A stretch of 64,000 nucleotides of DNA from Atopsyche davidsoni (Eukaryota > Arthropoda > Insecta > Trichoptera > Hydrobiosidae), in assembly GCA_022113835.1 (NCBI GenBank), contig JAILWY010000008.1:3402001-3466000 (forward strand), given 5' to 3'. Within the stretch, counting starts at the first letter, position 1; the number at the start of each line of letters is the position of its first letter. Under the pieces are notes generated by a model that was not told the origin of the DNA, did no database searches, and saw nothing but the letters and a program-made list of their open reading frames with translations. Below are positions 14,711 to 62,880 of this stretch, in pieces. A program made the position numbers and the translations under genes.

Positions 14711-14895
14711 AGGCACATTAGTTCACACATAGAAGATGTGAAATAGAACAATATCATCGTAATTTGTGTGGGATTTGAACCGACATCCTTACATGGCCGG
14801 TGTACTGACCATTGTACTAACGAACCACGTCCATTAATCGAGAATTTTTAAACAATCATACTCTACACATGAGCCAATGTGATTGACGTTCAATA
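14690..14895 (-). mobile_element. tRNA-derived SINE copy
   Basis: Read on the minus strand it has a tRNA-like head (CGTTAGTACAATGGTCAGTA, a CATGTAA loop, then a B-box-like GGTTCAAATCCC) and the family tail that runs through TGAACTAATGTGCCTAATCA to TTAGTAAT. The same head and tail occur at 24.3-24.9 kb. It lies in intron 2 of the dpr-like gene, opposite to + and in the gene's own sense. Confidence 0.8.
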
Positions 14896-16145: not shown

Positions 16146-16240
16146 TATACTGCCTACGTTACAGGTACATATAATTTTTTATTGAATTTAAAAACCTTTC
16201 AAACTATAAATAAATAAACAAAAACACTCAAACTGAACAC

Positions 16241-16280
16241 CTGTAAATGGTCTCAGTATGAGGACTGAAACGCCGGAGTA
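16241..16280 (+). repeat. Degenerate hammerhead-like motif
   Basis: On the plus strand CTGTAAA, then a GGTCTC..GAGGAC stem, then TGAAACGCCGG follows the order of a hammerhead core (CUGAUGA, stem II, GAAAC). CUGAUGA has two changes and stem III is not palindromic. It is most likely a decayed repeat end. Confidence 0.35.
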
Positions 16281-18862: not shown

Positions 18863-19062
18863 AAATTCAATATTTTTGACAAATAGTATTTGATGAAATT
18901 CCATTTTAATATTTTTGAGTAAAATACTTGAGTGATTTTCCACATGTTCGTTTTTATTTGTGACCGGTTTCGCCAACCTTCCAACCGGTTGGCGAAACCG
19001 GTCACAAATAAAAACGAATATGTGGAAAATCACTCAAGTATTTTACTCAAAAATATTAAAAT
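18863..19062. mobile_element. Foldback family A, copy 1 (near-perfect 160-bp hairpin)
   Basis: The arms at 18903-18978 and 18988-19062 are nearly perfect inverted repeats running from ATTTTTGAGTAAAATACTTG to GTGACCGGTTTCGCCAACC. The loop is under 10 bases. Both arms carry the GACCGGTTTCGCC block, the GAAA/stem III part of a degenerate hammerhead with palindromic ACCGGT. The left extension AAATTCAATATTTTTGAC marks the family's outer end. Confidence 0.88.
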
Positions 19063-20133
19063 AATTTTCATTATAAATGATTTATAGCCGATGGGTCATA
19101 TTCGATTTTATGATTTTCATGATTATTATTAAATATTTTAAAAATCCGCATTTTTTACCCATAAAGGTTTATTGTATCTGGGTTTTATACTTGCATGTAA
19201 GTTTCAGTGATACAATATTTTACATTTGTTAGAACAGGTGATCACGATAACACTAAAGGTGCGAGATTCAATTAATCGTATTGCAAAAATAATTCAGGAC
19301 TTTCCCTGTACCTTACACAATGTGAAAAGAAAATATAAATTGTCAAATAAATTCGAGATTACGACAAATTATGTTGATTTAATTTTATTTTAATTATTAC
19401 ATCAATCAGAATTTAAGCGTTTTCAGTATATTATTTTCCGCTTACATCTTTTATGTAAGTTCAGTTACGACTCGAGTGGATCGAGAAATAGAATCTTTCC
19501 AACCCATAACACGTGATGATTACATGATAATCAATTTCTCTAGAACTCCCACAGCTATAAGCGGCCTATGATGCCATCGTGTTATGGCGATTAATACGTA
19601 ACTCCATAAGCCGTCTTAACTGGACGGAGTCAATCTATAGTTAAGTTAACATTTTACCAAAACCTATACAGATTAATTCCAGCATCGGTTAAAACAAACA
19701 TATTTTAAAATAAAAATACTGACGCGTTATATACATAAGCGAAAAAAAAATAAAACAGCGTCGCAAAATAATGAAACATTTACACAAGCATGATTCAGTA
19801 CTCGGACATTTATAAAAAAAGTAATATTTTATTTGACATTAATTGCGGTCGGCAAACGGAATAAGCAAATAAAAAAAGCACCCAATAAATCCGGAAAATA
19901 CTGTTTTACCGGAAAGTGATTATTGCGCTTAAGTGACTTTGTGAGTTCGAAGCTGGATTTTAGAGCTTCGATTGGCTCGCCAACGTGACCGTGAAACATG
20001 GCCAATGGCGTATTAACGTCTCCGTGTCATTTGAAAGGAAGGCTGTATTGTTGATGCATTTCAAAACTTAAAAACATTTCATTTGACAAAGCTGTTAATT
20101 GAGAACTAGGGCAAAGTTCATGAAAATGCTTAA

Positions 20134-20323
20134 GAAATTCAATATTTTTGACAGAGTACTTGGTGGAATTCCATTTTAATATTTTTGAGTAAAATACTTG
20201 AGTGATTTTCCACATGTTCGTTAATAATGATATGTTTGATAATGCCAACGGGAAAGGTTGGCGAAATCGGTCACAAATAAAAACGAACATGTGGAAAATC
20301 ACTCAAGTATTTTACTCAAAAAT
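20134..20323. mobile_element. Foldback family A, copy 2, with 14-bp target duplication
   Basis: This 190-bp copy is flanked on both sides by ATGAAAATGCTTAA (20120-20133 and 20324-20337). The inner part on the plus strand reads TTTGATAATGCCAACGGG, AAAGGTTGGCGAAATCGG, TCAC: a GCCAAC/GTTGGC stem II then GAAA, in hammerhead order, with two core changes. A duplication of this length suggests target-primed insertion rather than a cut-and-paste transposon. Confidence 0.88.
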
Positions 20324-22914: not shown

Positions 22915-22962
22915 TTCTTCCAACGTTTCGGCATCCGTGCTGGGACCATGTTCAGAGATCTC
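22915..22962 (-). repeat. Degenerate hammerhead-like motif, AACGTT class
   Basis: On the minus strand CTGAACA, a GGTCCC-AGCAC-GGATGCC stem-loop and GAAACGTTGGAAG follow hammerhead order. Palindromic AACGTT at stem III is typical of short-stem-III hammerheads from Penelope-like repeats. CUGAUGA has two changes, so activity is unlikely. Confidence 0.5.
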
Positions 22963-24301: not shown

Positions 24302-24902
24302 TAGAAGATGATTTAAAGAAACTCTCAGAAAAATATCATCGCGATTTGTGTGGGATTTGAACCCACATCCCTTGGCTTACATGGCCGGTGTACTAACCCT
24401 TGTACTAACGAATCACTTCCGTTTATCGAGAATTTTTAACAATCATACTTAATACAATATAATAAACCCGTAATGGTTAATAAATACGCATCTGATTGAC
24501 GTCCAATCCAAAAAATAGACATACGTATATGATGGTGCGCGTCTTGGCTAAATTAATAGATTTTAAAAAGAATATCCAGATGGGACTAAAATCGCTTCAC
24601 TTGTTACTTTGTTCAAAAAGTCCAGTGCTCACAAATCACTAAATATTGGTTGGCCTGGGCACATTTGTAGAGTATGATTGTTAAAAATTCTTGATAAACG
24701 GAAGTGATTCGTTAGTACAAGGATTAGTACACTGGCCGTGTAAGCCAGGAGATGTGGGTTCGAATCCCACACAAATGACGATGATATTTTTCTGAGAGTT
24801 TCTTTAAATCATCTTCTATGTATGAACTAATGTGCCTAATCATATTAGTAATAATATAATAAACCCGTAACGATTGACGTCCAATCCAAAAAATAGACAT
24901 AC
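24302..24902. mobile_element. Composite SINE: two tRNA-derived heads in inverted orientation with flanking duplication
   Basis: The 601-bp unit is flanked by GGATAAACTCCA at 24290-24301 and 24903-24914. The left part (24302-24460) has a minus-strand tRNA-like head and body, and the right part (24662-24902) has the same on the plus strand. Both halves end in the same direct-orientation tail (AATAAACCCGTAA to GACGTCCAATCC to AAAAAATAGACATACG). The right head has a perfect CTGGC/GCCAG anticodon-type stem with a CGTGTAA loop and B box GGTTCGAATCCC. Position 33 is not T and the acceptor stem does not pair, so it is a SINE and not a tRNA gene. Confidence 0.85.
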
Positions 24903-32009: not shown

Positions 32010-32225
32010 AAATAATAAGTAAAATACTTGAGTGATTTATCCACACATAGATTTTTATTGGTGACCGGTTTCGCCAAACTTTCACATTCGCATTATTGCC
32101 AATGTAAAGGGTTGGCGAAACAAGTCACCAATAAAATCTATATGTGGACAATCACTCGAGTATTTTACTTATTATTTATATATTAAAATGGAATTCCACC
32201 AAGTACTCTAAAATATTGAATTTCT
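32010..32225. mobile_element. Foldback family A, copy 3
   Basis: The left arm AATAATAAGTAAAATACTTG to GGTGACCGGTTTCGCC pairs with GGTTGGCGAAACAAGTCACC to TTTTACTTATTATT. The right side continues to the family end GAATTCCACCAAGTACTC and TATTGAATTTC, while the left side is truncated. The arms share a private AATAATAAG extension, so the palindrome was edited as a unit. Confidence 0.85.
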
Positions 32226-34865: not shown

Positions 34866-35188
34866 AATTATAATGATAAAAGTACCTTTGTATTTTGTCT
34901 TTACTTTGAGTTGAGTTTCGACCAAATAGATTAGAAATTCAATATTTTTGACAGAGAGTACTAGGTGAAATTCCATTTTAATATTTTTGAATAAAATACT
35001 TGAGTGATTTTCCACATTTTCTATTTTATTAGTGACCGGTTTCGCCAACCTTTCACGTTGGCAGTATTTTATCAAAAAAATATTAAAATAGACTAGGTCA
35101 TCATCAGATGCATAACTAAACATCAGTCTTTCAGTATCATTATAATAATGGATCTTCACTAATCAAATGCCTTGTCCCTCAACAAGAA
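34866..35188. mobile_element. Foldback family B, copy 4, split by a family A insertion
   Basis: The left part runs AATGATAAAAGTACCTTTG to TTTCGACCAAATAGATTA. The right part runs GACTAGGTCATCATCAGATG to AAATGCCTTGTCCCTCAAC. Rejoined in the mind's eye, the two hold the CUGAUGA, stem II and GAAA parts of the minus-strand hammerhead, and the insertion lies in the stem II loop. The ACTAGT stem III part is deleted. Confidence 0.85.
34934..35085. mobile_element. Foldback family A, copy 4, nested in family B
   Basis: It starts with the family end GAAATTCAATATTTTTGAC and contains GTGACCGGTTTCGCCAACC. It is flanked by AAATAGAYTA (34924-34933 and 35086-35095, one mismatch), which looks like a target duplication of family B sequence. 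The right arm is mostly lost. Confidence 0.8.
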
Positions 35189-58962: not shown

Positions 58963-59181
58963 GAAATTCAATATTTTTGACAGAAAGTACTTGGTGGAAT
59001 TCTATTTTAATATTTTAGAGTAGAATACTTGAGTGATTTTCCACATGTTCGTTTTTATTTGTGACCGGTTTCGCCAACCAATCACGTTGGCATTATCAAA
59101 CGGGAAAATCACTCAAGTATTTTACTCAAAAATATTCAAATGGAATTTCATCAAGTACTCTCTGTCAAAAATATTGAATTT
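58963..59181. mobile_element. Foldback family A, copy 5 (both outer ends present)
   Basis: Both outer ends are kept: GAAATTCAATATTTTTGACA on the left and TGTCAAAAATATTGAATTTC on the right. The minus-strand centre reads TTTGATAATGCCAACGTG, ATTGGTTGGCGAAACCGGTC, AC: stem II GCCAAC/GTTGGC, GAAA, palindromic ACCGGT. TTGATAA in place of CUGAUGA changes two conserved core bases. Confidence 0.88.
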
Positions 59182-60447
59182 CTTTATAGCATACTAAAAA
59201 AATATGGAAAGCCTGATTTACAGTGTTTTTTTATAAAATGTTATGCTTCCCTAAAAACCCGGACACAATTTACAATTTAAGCAGAATTTATCGCTCCAGC
59301 CAAAGTCGAACCCGAAACTTCACAGTCAGTCACTAAACATGGTAACTGCTTAATTTTATTTATTTAGCATAGTTAGAGCATATCTCAAAGCTTTGTTTGA
59401 CCGATGAAATAAATAAAAAAGCGACATGTTTGATGTCTCGATGAATTTGAGACACGATAAATATCACATTTATAAAAAAGTCACGTAATAAAACTATATT
59501 TTTTACATGAAAAAACCGTACCAAAAATGGGTTTGAATCAGATTATGATTTTATTTTTTTGGATACAAAAAGTACAATAAGTTTAGTTTATGTACATTTT
59601 TATAATGCTCTGAAAATTCCACGCAAGTTTTTGTATTCTAAATATGTTCAGGAAAATAAGAATGTCAAATATGTCACACGCAGTCACGTGAAATGACAAA
59701 TCTAACGTTTTGTATTAGACATGTGTATCACAGTGATATGAAAAAAATGGCCCTCGATATATAGCCACTCGACTTTTTGTTCTGTCGCTTTCAAGAATAC
59801 AAATATATATATAGGTACTATACATGTATATGTGGTAAAATATATACATTTTATTATTTTTATGGAAACGGCCCAAGAATATAAAAATGCGTGGCCTGAA
59901 AACAATCTTAGCATGCTTTTGCAAGCAACGAGTCTTATGTATGGAATATAATTTAGCTGTTCTTAAATTCATCAAAAATAGAGCAAATTGCGAAATAAAA
60001 ACTATAAATAACACAAGTGGATAATATTTGTAAAATACTAGCATTTTAGACTTCGGAAACGGCAGGTATTTTTATCTTTCGTCGATCAAACAATTATTCA
60101 TTTTAATAGTTTACAGTTATACAGGTTTTATTTTATTTTATTGCTGCATTTAATTTATGACAACTCAAGATGATTTTTTCCTGAGAGTTTCTTTAATAAT
60201 TTTTCAATATGTGAAAAAATAATGTACTTAATCATATCAATCAAATACAATGTATTTTCAAAGCTTGATAAAAATGTTTTCATTGTAAATACTAACCATT
60301 TTCATTATTAATATTTTGTTCATATATCTCATTGCAATTGCAAAAGTTATTTACACGATTTTTTATAATTGACTAAGCCTTTCACAAATTCGACTGGACT
60401 ATAAGAATGGTAGATCTTTAATATCAAAATTATCAATAGTTGTAGCC
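59182..60447. other. Non-coding sequence with a SINE tail fragment
   Basis: At about 60168-60240 CCTGAGAGTTTCTTTAATAA and AATGTACTTAATCATAT match the SINE body of the 24.7-kb copy on the plus strand. Otherwise nothing is recognised; overlapping open frames at 59702-60044 on the minus strand show no domain. Confidence 0.5.
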
Positions 60448-62235: not shown

Positions 62236-62310
62236 GCCCCCCCCCCCCCTTAACCTAACCTAACCTTAACACCCCCCCCCCCCAACCTAACCTAACCTCC
62301 CCCCCCCTTC
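62236..62310. repeat. Poly-C runs alternating with telomere-type CCTAA repeats
   Basis: C-runs of about 9-14 bases alternate with TTAACCTAACCTAACC and CAACCTAACCTAACCT. Two short CCTAA arrays are thus embedded in C-tracts within a GC-rich zone (62050-62340). Confidence 0.9.
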
Positions 62311-62561
62311 GGTCCAGCGCAACCCCCGAAGCCTACAGATCCACCAACATTAACTTTGCACGGTAACTTGTAGTCGGAGTGTTTTTAAGGGTCCTCTGTT
62401 GAACTATGCTCGACATAAAAAAAAACGTTTTGATTATTATCATTATTTAAAAAAAATGTTTATTCTTGTTGAGGGATAAGGCATTTTGATTCGTGAAGAT
62501 TATTATAATGATAAAAGTACCTTTGTATTTTGTCTTCACTTTGAGTTTATTAAAATTATTT

Positions 62562-62605
62562 GCATTACTAGTTTCGACCCAATACACTGGGTCATCATCA
62601 GATGC
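62562..62605 (-). ncRNA. Complete minimal hammerhead ribozyme motif (type I, short stem III)
   Basis: On the minus strand, in order: stem I strand GCAT (62605-62602), core CTGATGA (62601-62595), T, stem II GACCC / GGGTC (62593-62589 with 62580-62576) closing an AGTGTATT loop, GAAA (62575-62572), then ACTAGT, A, and the second stem I strand ATGC (62565-62562). All conserved core bases are present. The A-U and C-G pairs of a two-pair stem III come from ACTAGT, and cleavage would fall after GUA at 62566. Such short stem III hammerheads are known from Penelope-like elements and retrozymes and often act as dimers, which the palindromic ACTAGT would allow. Self-cleavage is inferred, not shown. Confidence 0.75.
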
Positions 62606-62622
62606 TTAACTAAACTAATAAA

Positions 62623-62815
62623 GAATTTCAATATTTTTGACAGAGAGTACTAGGTGGAATTCCATTTTAATATTTTTGAATAAAATACTTGAGTGGTTAT
62701 GCACATTTTCGTTTTTATTTGTGACCGTTTGGTAATGCCAACGTGAAAGGTTGGCAAAACCGGTCACAAATAAAAACGAAAATGTGGAAATAAATCACTC
62801 AAGTATTTTTTTTGA
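62623..62815. mobile_element. Foldback family A, copy 6, nested in family B
   Basis: It starts GAATTTCAATATTTTTGACA and carries the arm pair TTTTTATTTGTGACCG / CGGTCACAAATAAAAA. The centre reads TTTGGTAATGCCAACGTG, AAAGGTTGGCAAAACCGGTC, so both CUGAUGA and GAAA are altered. The 7-bp TAATAAA at 62616-62622 and 62819-62825 may be the target duplication. Confidence 0.8.
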
Positions 62816-62880
62816 AAATAATAAACTCAAAGTGAAGACAAAATACAAAGGTATTTTTATCATTATAAAAATATTTATAT

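Follow-up and report, generated by a model that had tools for sequence, protein, structure and literature searches.

A 403-bp insertion occupies positions 62464-62866 of the window, the 64,000-nucleotide stretch of Atopsyche davidsoni DNA analysed here. It consists of two arms around an unrelated repeat, both probably derived from a Penelope-like element (PLE). The tail arm, on the minus strand (62464..62615; unit 1-155), would read from the RNA 5' end through a hammerhead motif to a former ORF start, and it terminates at the family's fixed tail end, CTCAACAAGA. The second arm is inverted and truncated (62819..62866, plus strand, from unit 64), and contains neither tail nor hammerhead; its alignment extends to unit 117 at 62872, overlapping the target-site duplication. 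That duplication, AAAAATGTTTAT at 62452..62463 and AAAAATATTTAT at 62867..62878 (both plus strand), spans 12 bp with one mismatch (11/12 bases match); the longest exact flank match of this copy is 5, the same as the median of mispaired flanks.

Between the arms (~62616..62818, no strand assigned) lies a member of an unrelated repeat family with a foldback of its own, recognised by sequence comparison with the fetched loci and the window. The same repeat separates the PLE arms of two sister copies, L002 and L003. Elsewhere in the window, this foldback repeat recurs at about 18863-19044, 20132-20313, 32021-32225, 34933-35066, and 59024-59187. Other features include C-runs that alternate with CCTAA-type repeats at 62240-62303 (TTAGG, the insect telomere motif, on the other strand), and three related tRNA-model matches: 24706-24778 (+), 24342-24414 (-), and 14760-14826 (-). 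The first two of these, inverted and about 290 nt apart, are perhaps tRNA-derived repeats.

The tail arm carries a 44-nt hammerhead-type motif (62605-62562, minus strand), which reads GCAT-CTGATGA-T-GACCC-AGTGTATT-GGGTC-GAA-ACTAGT-A-ATGC. It has the hallmarks of a hammerhead, CUGANGA, GAAA, and NUH, with all core bases in type I order; the sequence confirms each core base at the position given in the initial annotation. On the minus strand, stem I is formed by GCAU (62602..62605) and AUGC (62562..62565), and stem II by GACCC (62589..62593) and GGGUC (62576..62580). The core CUGAUGA (62595..62601) is followed by an extra U between A9 and stem II (62594); the core GAA (62573..62575) adjoins stem III, which the third A of GAAA opens. 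A17 (62566) ends the GUA site, and the sequence order predicts cleavage between 62566 and 62565. In the textbook hammerhead, zero extra bases separate the core from stem II. According to a passage of PMC10085705, one or two extra bases at most are tolerated between CUGANGA and the adjacent stems, a limit inside which the single extra U falls.

Stem III is the loopless palindrome ACUAGU (62567..62572, minus strand), the candidate dimer stem: within one molecule it can form at most one A-U pair, and it closes only between two copies. The motif had been described as having three closable stems within a foldback repeat. Stems I and II do close in one molecule, but stem III needs two; the foldback is real, but only one of its two arms holds the motif.

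Folding calculations bear on the same point. Alone, the 44-mer has a minimum fold of -12.5 kcal/mol that hides part of the core, versus -8.8 for the hammerhead without stem III. For two molecules of the window motif, the hammerhead formed through ACUAGU and both stems I reaches -24.6, versus -35.4 for an unconstrained non-hammerhead duplex; for the PLE version, the hammerhead reaches -21.2 versus a minimum of -23.3. The hammerhead is not the computed minimum either way. By energy alone, a dimeric hammerhead is allowed and not predicted. Were the motif to act, a dimer would be the plausible form.

No long frame for RT/endonuclease coding is present within the 403 bp, so the window copy would be a non-autonomous derivative. 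The copy contains a single motif, with no partner in cis, and the frame in its tail is broken; most likely, then, it is a passive relic, which at best could cleave together with another transcript.

Relatives of the motif in the host genome

The searched genome comprises 370.7 Mb in 80 contigs. A first look with the window region yielded 1582 candidates, of which 40 were scored, giving 67 genome matches. Exact patterns, whose counts are lower bounds on copies, gave 462 matches for the window-type core (0 for the reversed control), 155 for the PLE type (control 0), and 19 for other stems (control 2). In the last set, L120 is a window-family copy, and some matches are probably due to chance. Most of its rows represent a second lineage, in which two loci read ACGUC (canonical GUC) and other loci have different, partly decayed forms; the base before stem II in this lineage was demanded by the pattern, and so is not independent evidence. 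The count of intact motifs, 103/157, contains overlapping loci more than once.

Stem II is the informative helix; neither the window family nor its PLE shows much variation in stems I and III, which say little about pairing. Four stem II types occur across relatives: GACCC/GGGUC, GACCU/AGGUC, GGCCC/GGGCC, and GGUCC/GGACC. In L120, a window-family copy with GGCCC/GGGCC, both sides have changed, such that pairing is maintained. Beyond the pattern-fixed cells, 50 of 63 stem II cells are paired, versus a mean of 37.9 in row shuffles, 0/5000 of which reach 50; this test used 21 of 22 rows (one G-U variant left out), and the rows are partly related. When the window family (the L014 unit) is compared with the PLE in L061, conserved motif parts differ at 0/34 positions and the rest at 18/112 (Fisher P = 0.0075); the distal part of stem II together with the loop differs at 5/10. 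This conservation and the stem II pairing support the hammerhead identity. The initial assignment to the kind known from PLEs, minimal type I hammerheads with a palindromic stem III, is upheld.

The same genome contains apparently autonomous relatives. GIY-YIG matches led to frames of 826 aa at L055, L056, and L057, and of 818 aa at L058; the L055 frame matched both the RVT_1 and GIY-YIG domains, the combination of RT and GIY-YIG in one frame that marks a PLE. In a comparison over residues 150-800, with 7995 candidates scored, the closest relatives among the matches listed are unnamed proteins, at up to 48% identity; named ones include proteins of Phthorimaea and Diabrotica, with identities of 36-41%. 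L055 consists of a pseudo-LTR with the motif, the frame, a second motif-bearing pseudo-LTR, and a tail that terminates in CTCAACAACAT; an inverted fragment of the motif precedes the element. Judged from sequence, the PLE motif has the sense orientation and precedes the RT/endonuclease frame, downstream of the RNA 5' end. The likely start of this frame, MDLHHANALSLNN, resembles the translated window-family tail, MDLHE(S/L)NALSLNK (L014 translated).

At the long-frame loci (L055-L058), every motif found has G-U as the first stem II pair, as if activity were perhaps not strictly needed there. At two loci with short frames, L060 and L061, this pair is G-C. Genome-wide, the C/T site here reads T in 52 and C in 43 of 95 PLE-type places, taken from the 100 listed of 155.

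Model searches gave mixed results. A search with the Rfam hammerhead models had been set beforehand as the test that could refute the motif, and the motif failed it: over the window, no hammerhead family matched at gathering thresholds, nor did any match at E up to 10 on 501 or 58 bases. This test is judged weak for the minimal class because the models miss the same motif in ten sister or other-lineage loci, all with zero matches. Hammerhead_1 gave no match in the host genome, and 14 control genomes were equally silent, so its silence is no proof of absence.

A covariance model, R1, was built solely from ten motifs of the second lineage. On the 64-kb window it recovers the motif at E = 8.3e-4, as the second of four matches at E up to 10. 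Given 14 PLE-bearing loci, it recovers the C-type PLE motifs with weak scores (E = 0.024-0.042 over 84 kb), and the G-U type gives no match at E up to 1 (in L055 and L058, the two of the four long-frame loci given). Because of these weak and missed matches, R1 lends moderate support to the hammerhead identity.

In the window, R1 also marks a decayed second-lineage, hammerhead-like match at 22917-22960 (minus strand; core CTGAACA; E = 4.1e-8), and a further decayed second-lineage match at 16236-16279 (plus strand; E = 0.0017). Plasmid DNA, solved structures (searched by sequence), and viral contigs (first motif pattern) returned nothing. Viral contigs scanned with the PLE protein gave one pattern match and no relative, and the IMG/VR pattern matches L104-L106 were dropped, as by eye they resemble ordinary coding sequence.

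Could the motif be an accident, or a palindrome that matters at the level of DNA in a repeat that never needed RNA structure? The lack of an Rfam match, the computed minimum folds (other structures), the weakened stem II of the long-frame PLEs examined, and the origin of most insertions from RNA uncut at the site (see below) all point that way. Strict and relaxed descriptors, however, were both absent from 300 first-order Markov resamples of the window; stem II pairing is maintained across families; and the conserved parts are unchanged relative to the PLE while the rest has changed. The sequences further suggest that the second lineage, with its compensated stem II, is independent, and this too would count against chance. 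Accident or DNA-level palindrome is an improbable explanation.

Insertion ends and RNA templates

Sister copies record how insertions began and ended. They were fetched with a two-armed query (L064-L097) or as best matches to a one-armed query (L001-L030 and L098-L103), and both queries favour long, well-kept copies. The tail arm ends at unit 152-156 in 70/70 copies. An inverted arm lies within 700 nt in 60/70; it ends at unit 111-119 in 57/60, and in 0/60 does it have a tail. The inner ends of these second arms are at unit 5 or lower in 43/60 and variable in the other 17. Direct arms start at unit 5 or lower in 67/70, in copies fetched by motif-containing queries. Flanks match exactly over at least 8 bases in 40/60 copies (5.8% of mispaired flanks) and over at least 10 in 28/60 (0.44% of mispaired flanks).

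A further set, C1, comprises the 22 places with exact core matches on one contig, and so is conditioned on one intact core. Seventeen of the 22 are two-armed, and 16 of those 17 have exactly one tail (the stretch fetched for L134 contains none). The arm not selected for begins no later than unit 50 in 13/17, and at 55, 84, 90, and 133 in the other four. Sometimes the tail arm is the truncated one.

The family thus has a pseudo-LTR, a tail, an inverted arm, and a target-site duplication, all hallmarks of PLEs. Its fixed tail end and target duplications, together with the same-genome PLE relatives and their RT and GIY-YIG frames, bear out the earlier proposal that it moved via RNA. Taken together, 62464-62866 is very probably a non-autonomous PLE insertion made by target-primed reverse transcription, with the motif as the family's own hammerhead. 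Several points count against this best explanation: the missing Rfam match; the one-base insertion beside the core; minimum folds that are not hammerheads; the G-U stem II of the long-frame PLEs, which R1 misses; and the mismatched duplication of the window copy.

Foldback shape and target duplications would also suit a MITE, or a foldback DNA transposon in which the motif is incidental. Such an element would not account for arms that end at two different fixed sites, for inner ends that vary, or for the presence of PLE elements whose tail is of the same kind; we consider it most unlikely.

The predicted cut falls between unit positions 50 and 51. If templates had been cut there, arms should begin at the cut; only 1/60 second arms (L030) starts at 50-52, and L013 combines a fragment covering 1-23 with one that begins at 51. 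A pattern for unit 51-73, which does not require the motif, has 562 matches in the genome (control 0), and is blind to copies with C ten bases upstream. Among 100 listed of the 562, 93 arms continue upstream past the cut, with at most 2 mismatches in 10, as counted by eye. Of the other seven, one has 3 mismatches and six have no match, one of the six breaking exactly at the cut. Because 93 of 100 listed arms run through the predicted cut, insertion templates appear to have been mostly uncut at this site; cut templates would be rare, and re-ligation is possible.

These ends also speak to the suggestion of a retrozyme: a tandem non-LTR element spreading as circular RNA, cut and joined at its hammerhead. 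The type I motif and its weak, palindromic helix III are as in the amphibian retrozymes of PMC7229834, and the presence of a type I hammerhead in a retroelement is a likeness to metazoan retrozymes generally. Passages of the same source describe the metazoan elements as tandem repeats of 150-450 bp, whereas 95 PLE-type places, out of the 100 listed, have 0 same-strand neighbours within 600 nt. The window family, unlike those elements as described there, shows no tandem arrays and no sign of a circular template; its fixed ends are at a distance from the cut site, which 93 of the 100 listed arms run through. On this evidence the retrozyme reading was abandoned, as it has hardly any probability left.

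Integration and known Penelope elements

The two arms of an insertion tend to share alleles. Head-to-head PLE-type pairs have the same C/T allele in 25/25 cases within 200 nt and 27/27 within 600 nt; permutation gives means of 13.0 and 14.0, and 0/20000 permutations reach the observed values. (This test covers 95 of 100 listed of 155 places, five with another loop being left out.) Window-type pairs agree in 8/9 cases, versus a permuted mean of 2.8, with agreement as high in 16/20000. Unit position 10 agrees in 26/27 scorable pairs (15.3 expected). Agreement at the remaining seven polymorphic columns is at or barely above expectation (for example, 52 versus 50.2 and 53 versus 53.3 expected), and nine rare variants are common to both arms versus 179 in a single arm. 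Mean divergence is 4.2% within copies and 4.8% between them, which argues against strong homogenisation after insertion.

These observations suggest a general model for integration. In L055, the motif is present in both pseudo-LTRs, so that two copies on a single RNA could pair as a dimeric hammerhead through ACUAGU. Fixed ends and target duplications point to target-primed reverse transcription of the family RNA. The first cDNA would start at the fixed tail site and extend through the hammerhead as far as the RNA 5' end. The second would be shorter, primed from the opposite side of the target cut, and would begin at a fixed site of its own, shortly ahead of the ORF start. The end mapping in sister copies suggests that both cDNAs are then joined head to head, in the window copy around a third sequence. 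We regard it as evenly balanced whether two-ended target priming of this kind is correct, with one RNA (or several RNAs from a single source copy) copied from two different fixed sites. If true, it accounts for inverted pseudo-LTRs and a one-sided tail in the absence of self-priming, and the hammerhead would normally be bypassed, uncut RNA being the template.

The foldback could instead have formed by self-priming of a single strand, with the same PLE origin, as proposed in part of PMC3846280. Near-palindromic head-to-head junctions fit this proposal, as do arms from the same template, namely the shared C/T alleles of pairs within 200 nt and the agreement at unit position 10. It offers no ready place, however, for a second arm with its own fixed end (57/60 at unit 111-119) and no tail. 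Self-priming further predicts symmetric inner ends, whereas 17/60 lie beyond unit 5, and in the C1 set the truncated arm is sometimes the tail arm. Self-priming is possible, if doubtful. Fixed outer ends, variable inner ends, and shared alleles favour two independent starts, on a single template or on RNAs from one source copy, over self-priming.

Minimal type I hammerheads of Penelope-like elements have reportedly been described by Cervera and de la Pena (2014) and by Lunse et al. (2017). As summarised in parts of PMC7761336 and PMC6155905, these PLE hammerheads have no proper helix III, occur in pseudo-LTRs and at dispersed non-coding sites, and are proposed to cleave as dimers. The present motif resembles them in being type I, in having no proper helix III, and in its pseudo-LTR location; relative to those summaries, the window family differs in its GUA site, its six-base ACUAGU palindrome, and its one extra base before stem II. 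Animal genomes reportedly contain thousands of minimal hammerheads at dispersed sites, and a review describes the activity and role of PLE hammerheads in vivo as still a mystery (both PMC7761336).

PLE hammerheads, tails, inverted pseudo-LTRs, and target-site duplications have already been published, as passages of PMC11167929, PMC3846280, and PMC7761336 indicate. Bdelloid Penelope elements, in the portion of PMC3846280 that describes them, have captured DNA between their pseudo-LTRs, a layout like the repeat between arms in the window copy, L002, and L003. Unlike those elements as described there, the present family has numerous ORF-less miniature copies (the 462 exact core matches, some copies with two). 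In the open-access literature searched, a miniature hammerhead-bearing Penelope family of such layout was not found. The kind is already known and the member is new: ordinary as a ribozyme, it is modestly interesting for Penelope integration. The insertion footprint of the sister copies is the more interesting part. The genome contains long-frame partners besides hundreds of intact copies of the motif, and its insertion ends form a natural record. On this record, the RNA for insertion would mostly be uncut at the hammerhead, and the insertions examined would have used two fixed starts and one type of template.

The closest parallel is PAc, the Poseidon element of Anolis carolinensis, as described in parts of PMC11167929. 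There, too, the hammerhead is at the junction of pseudo-LTR and ORF, cDNA starts inside the 5' region of the ORF, both target strands are extended, two start sites are adjacent, and uncut RNA is the main substrate. The details differ: the PAc ORF begins at stem II, with the cut 26 bp inside the ORF (PMC11167929), whereas the window family has its probable ATG 95 nt downstream of A9, and its two starts would be about 40 nt apart. Catalytic mutants of PAc left insertion unaffected, and unprocessed RNA was the dominant substrate, according to the same parts of PMC11167929. The templates proposed here, mostly uncut, agree with that finding.
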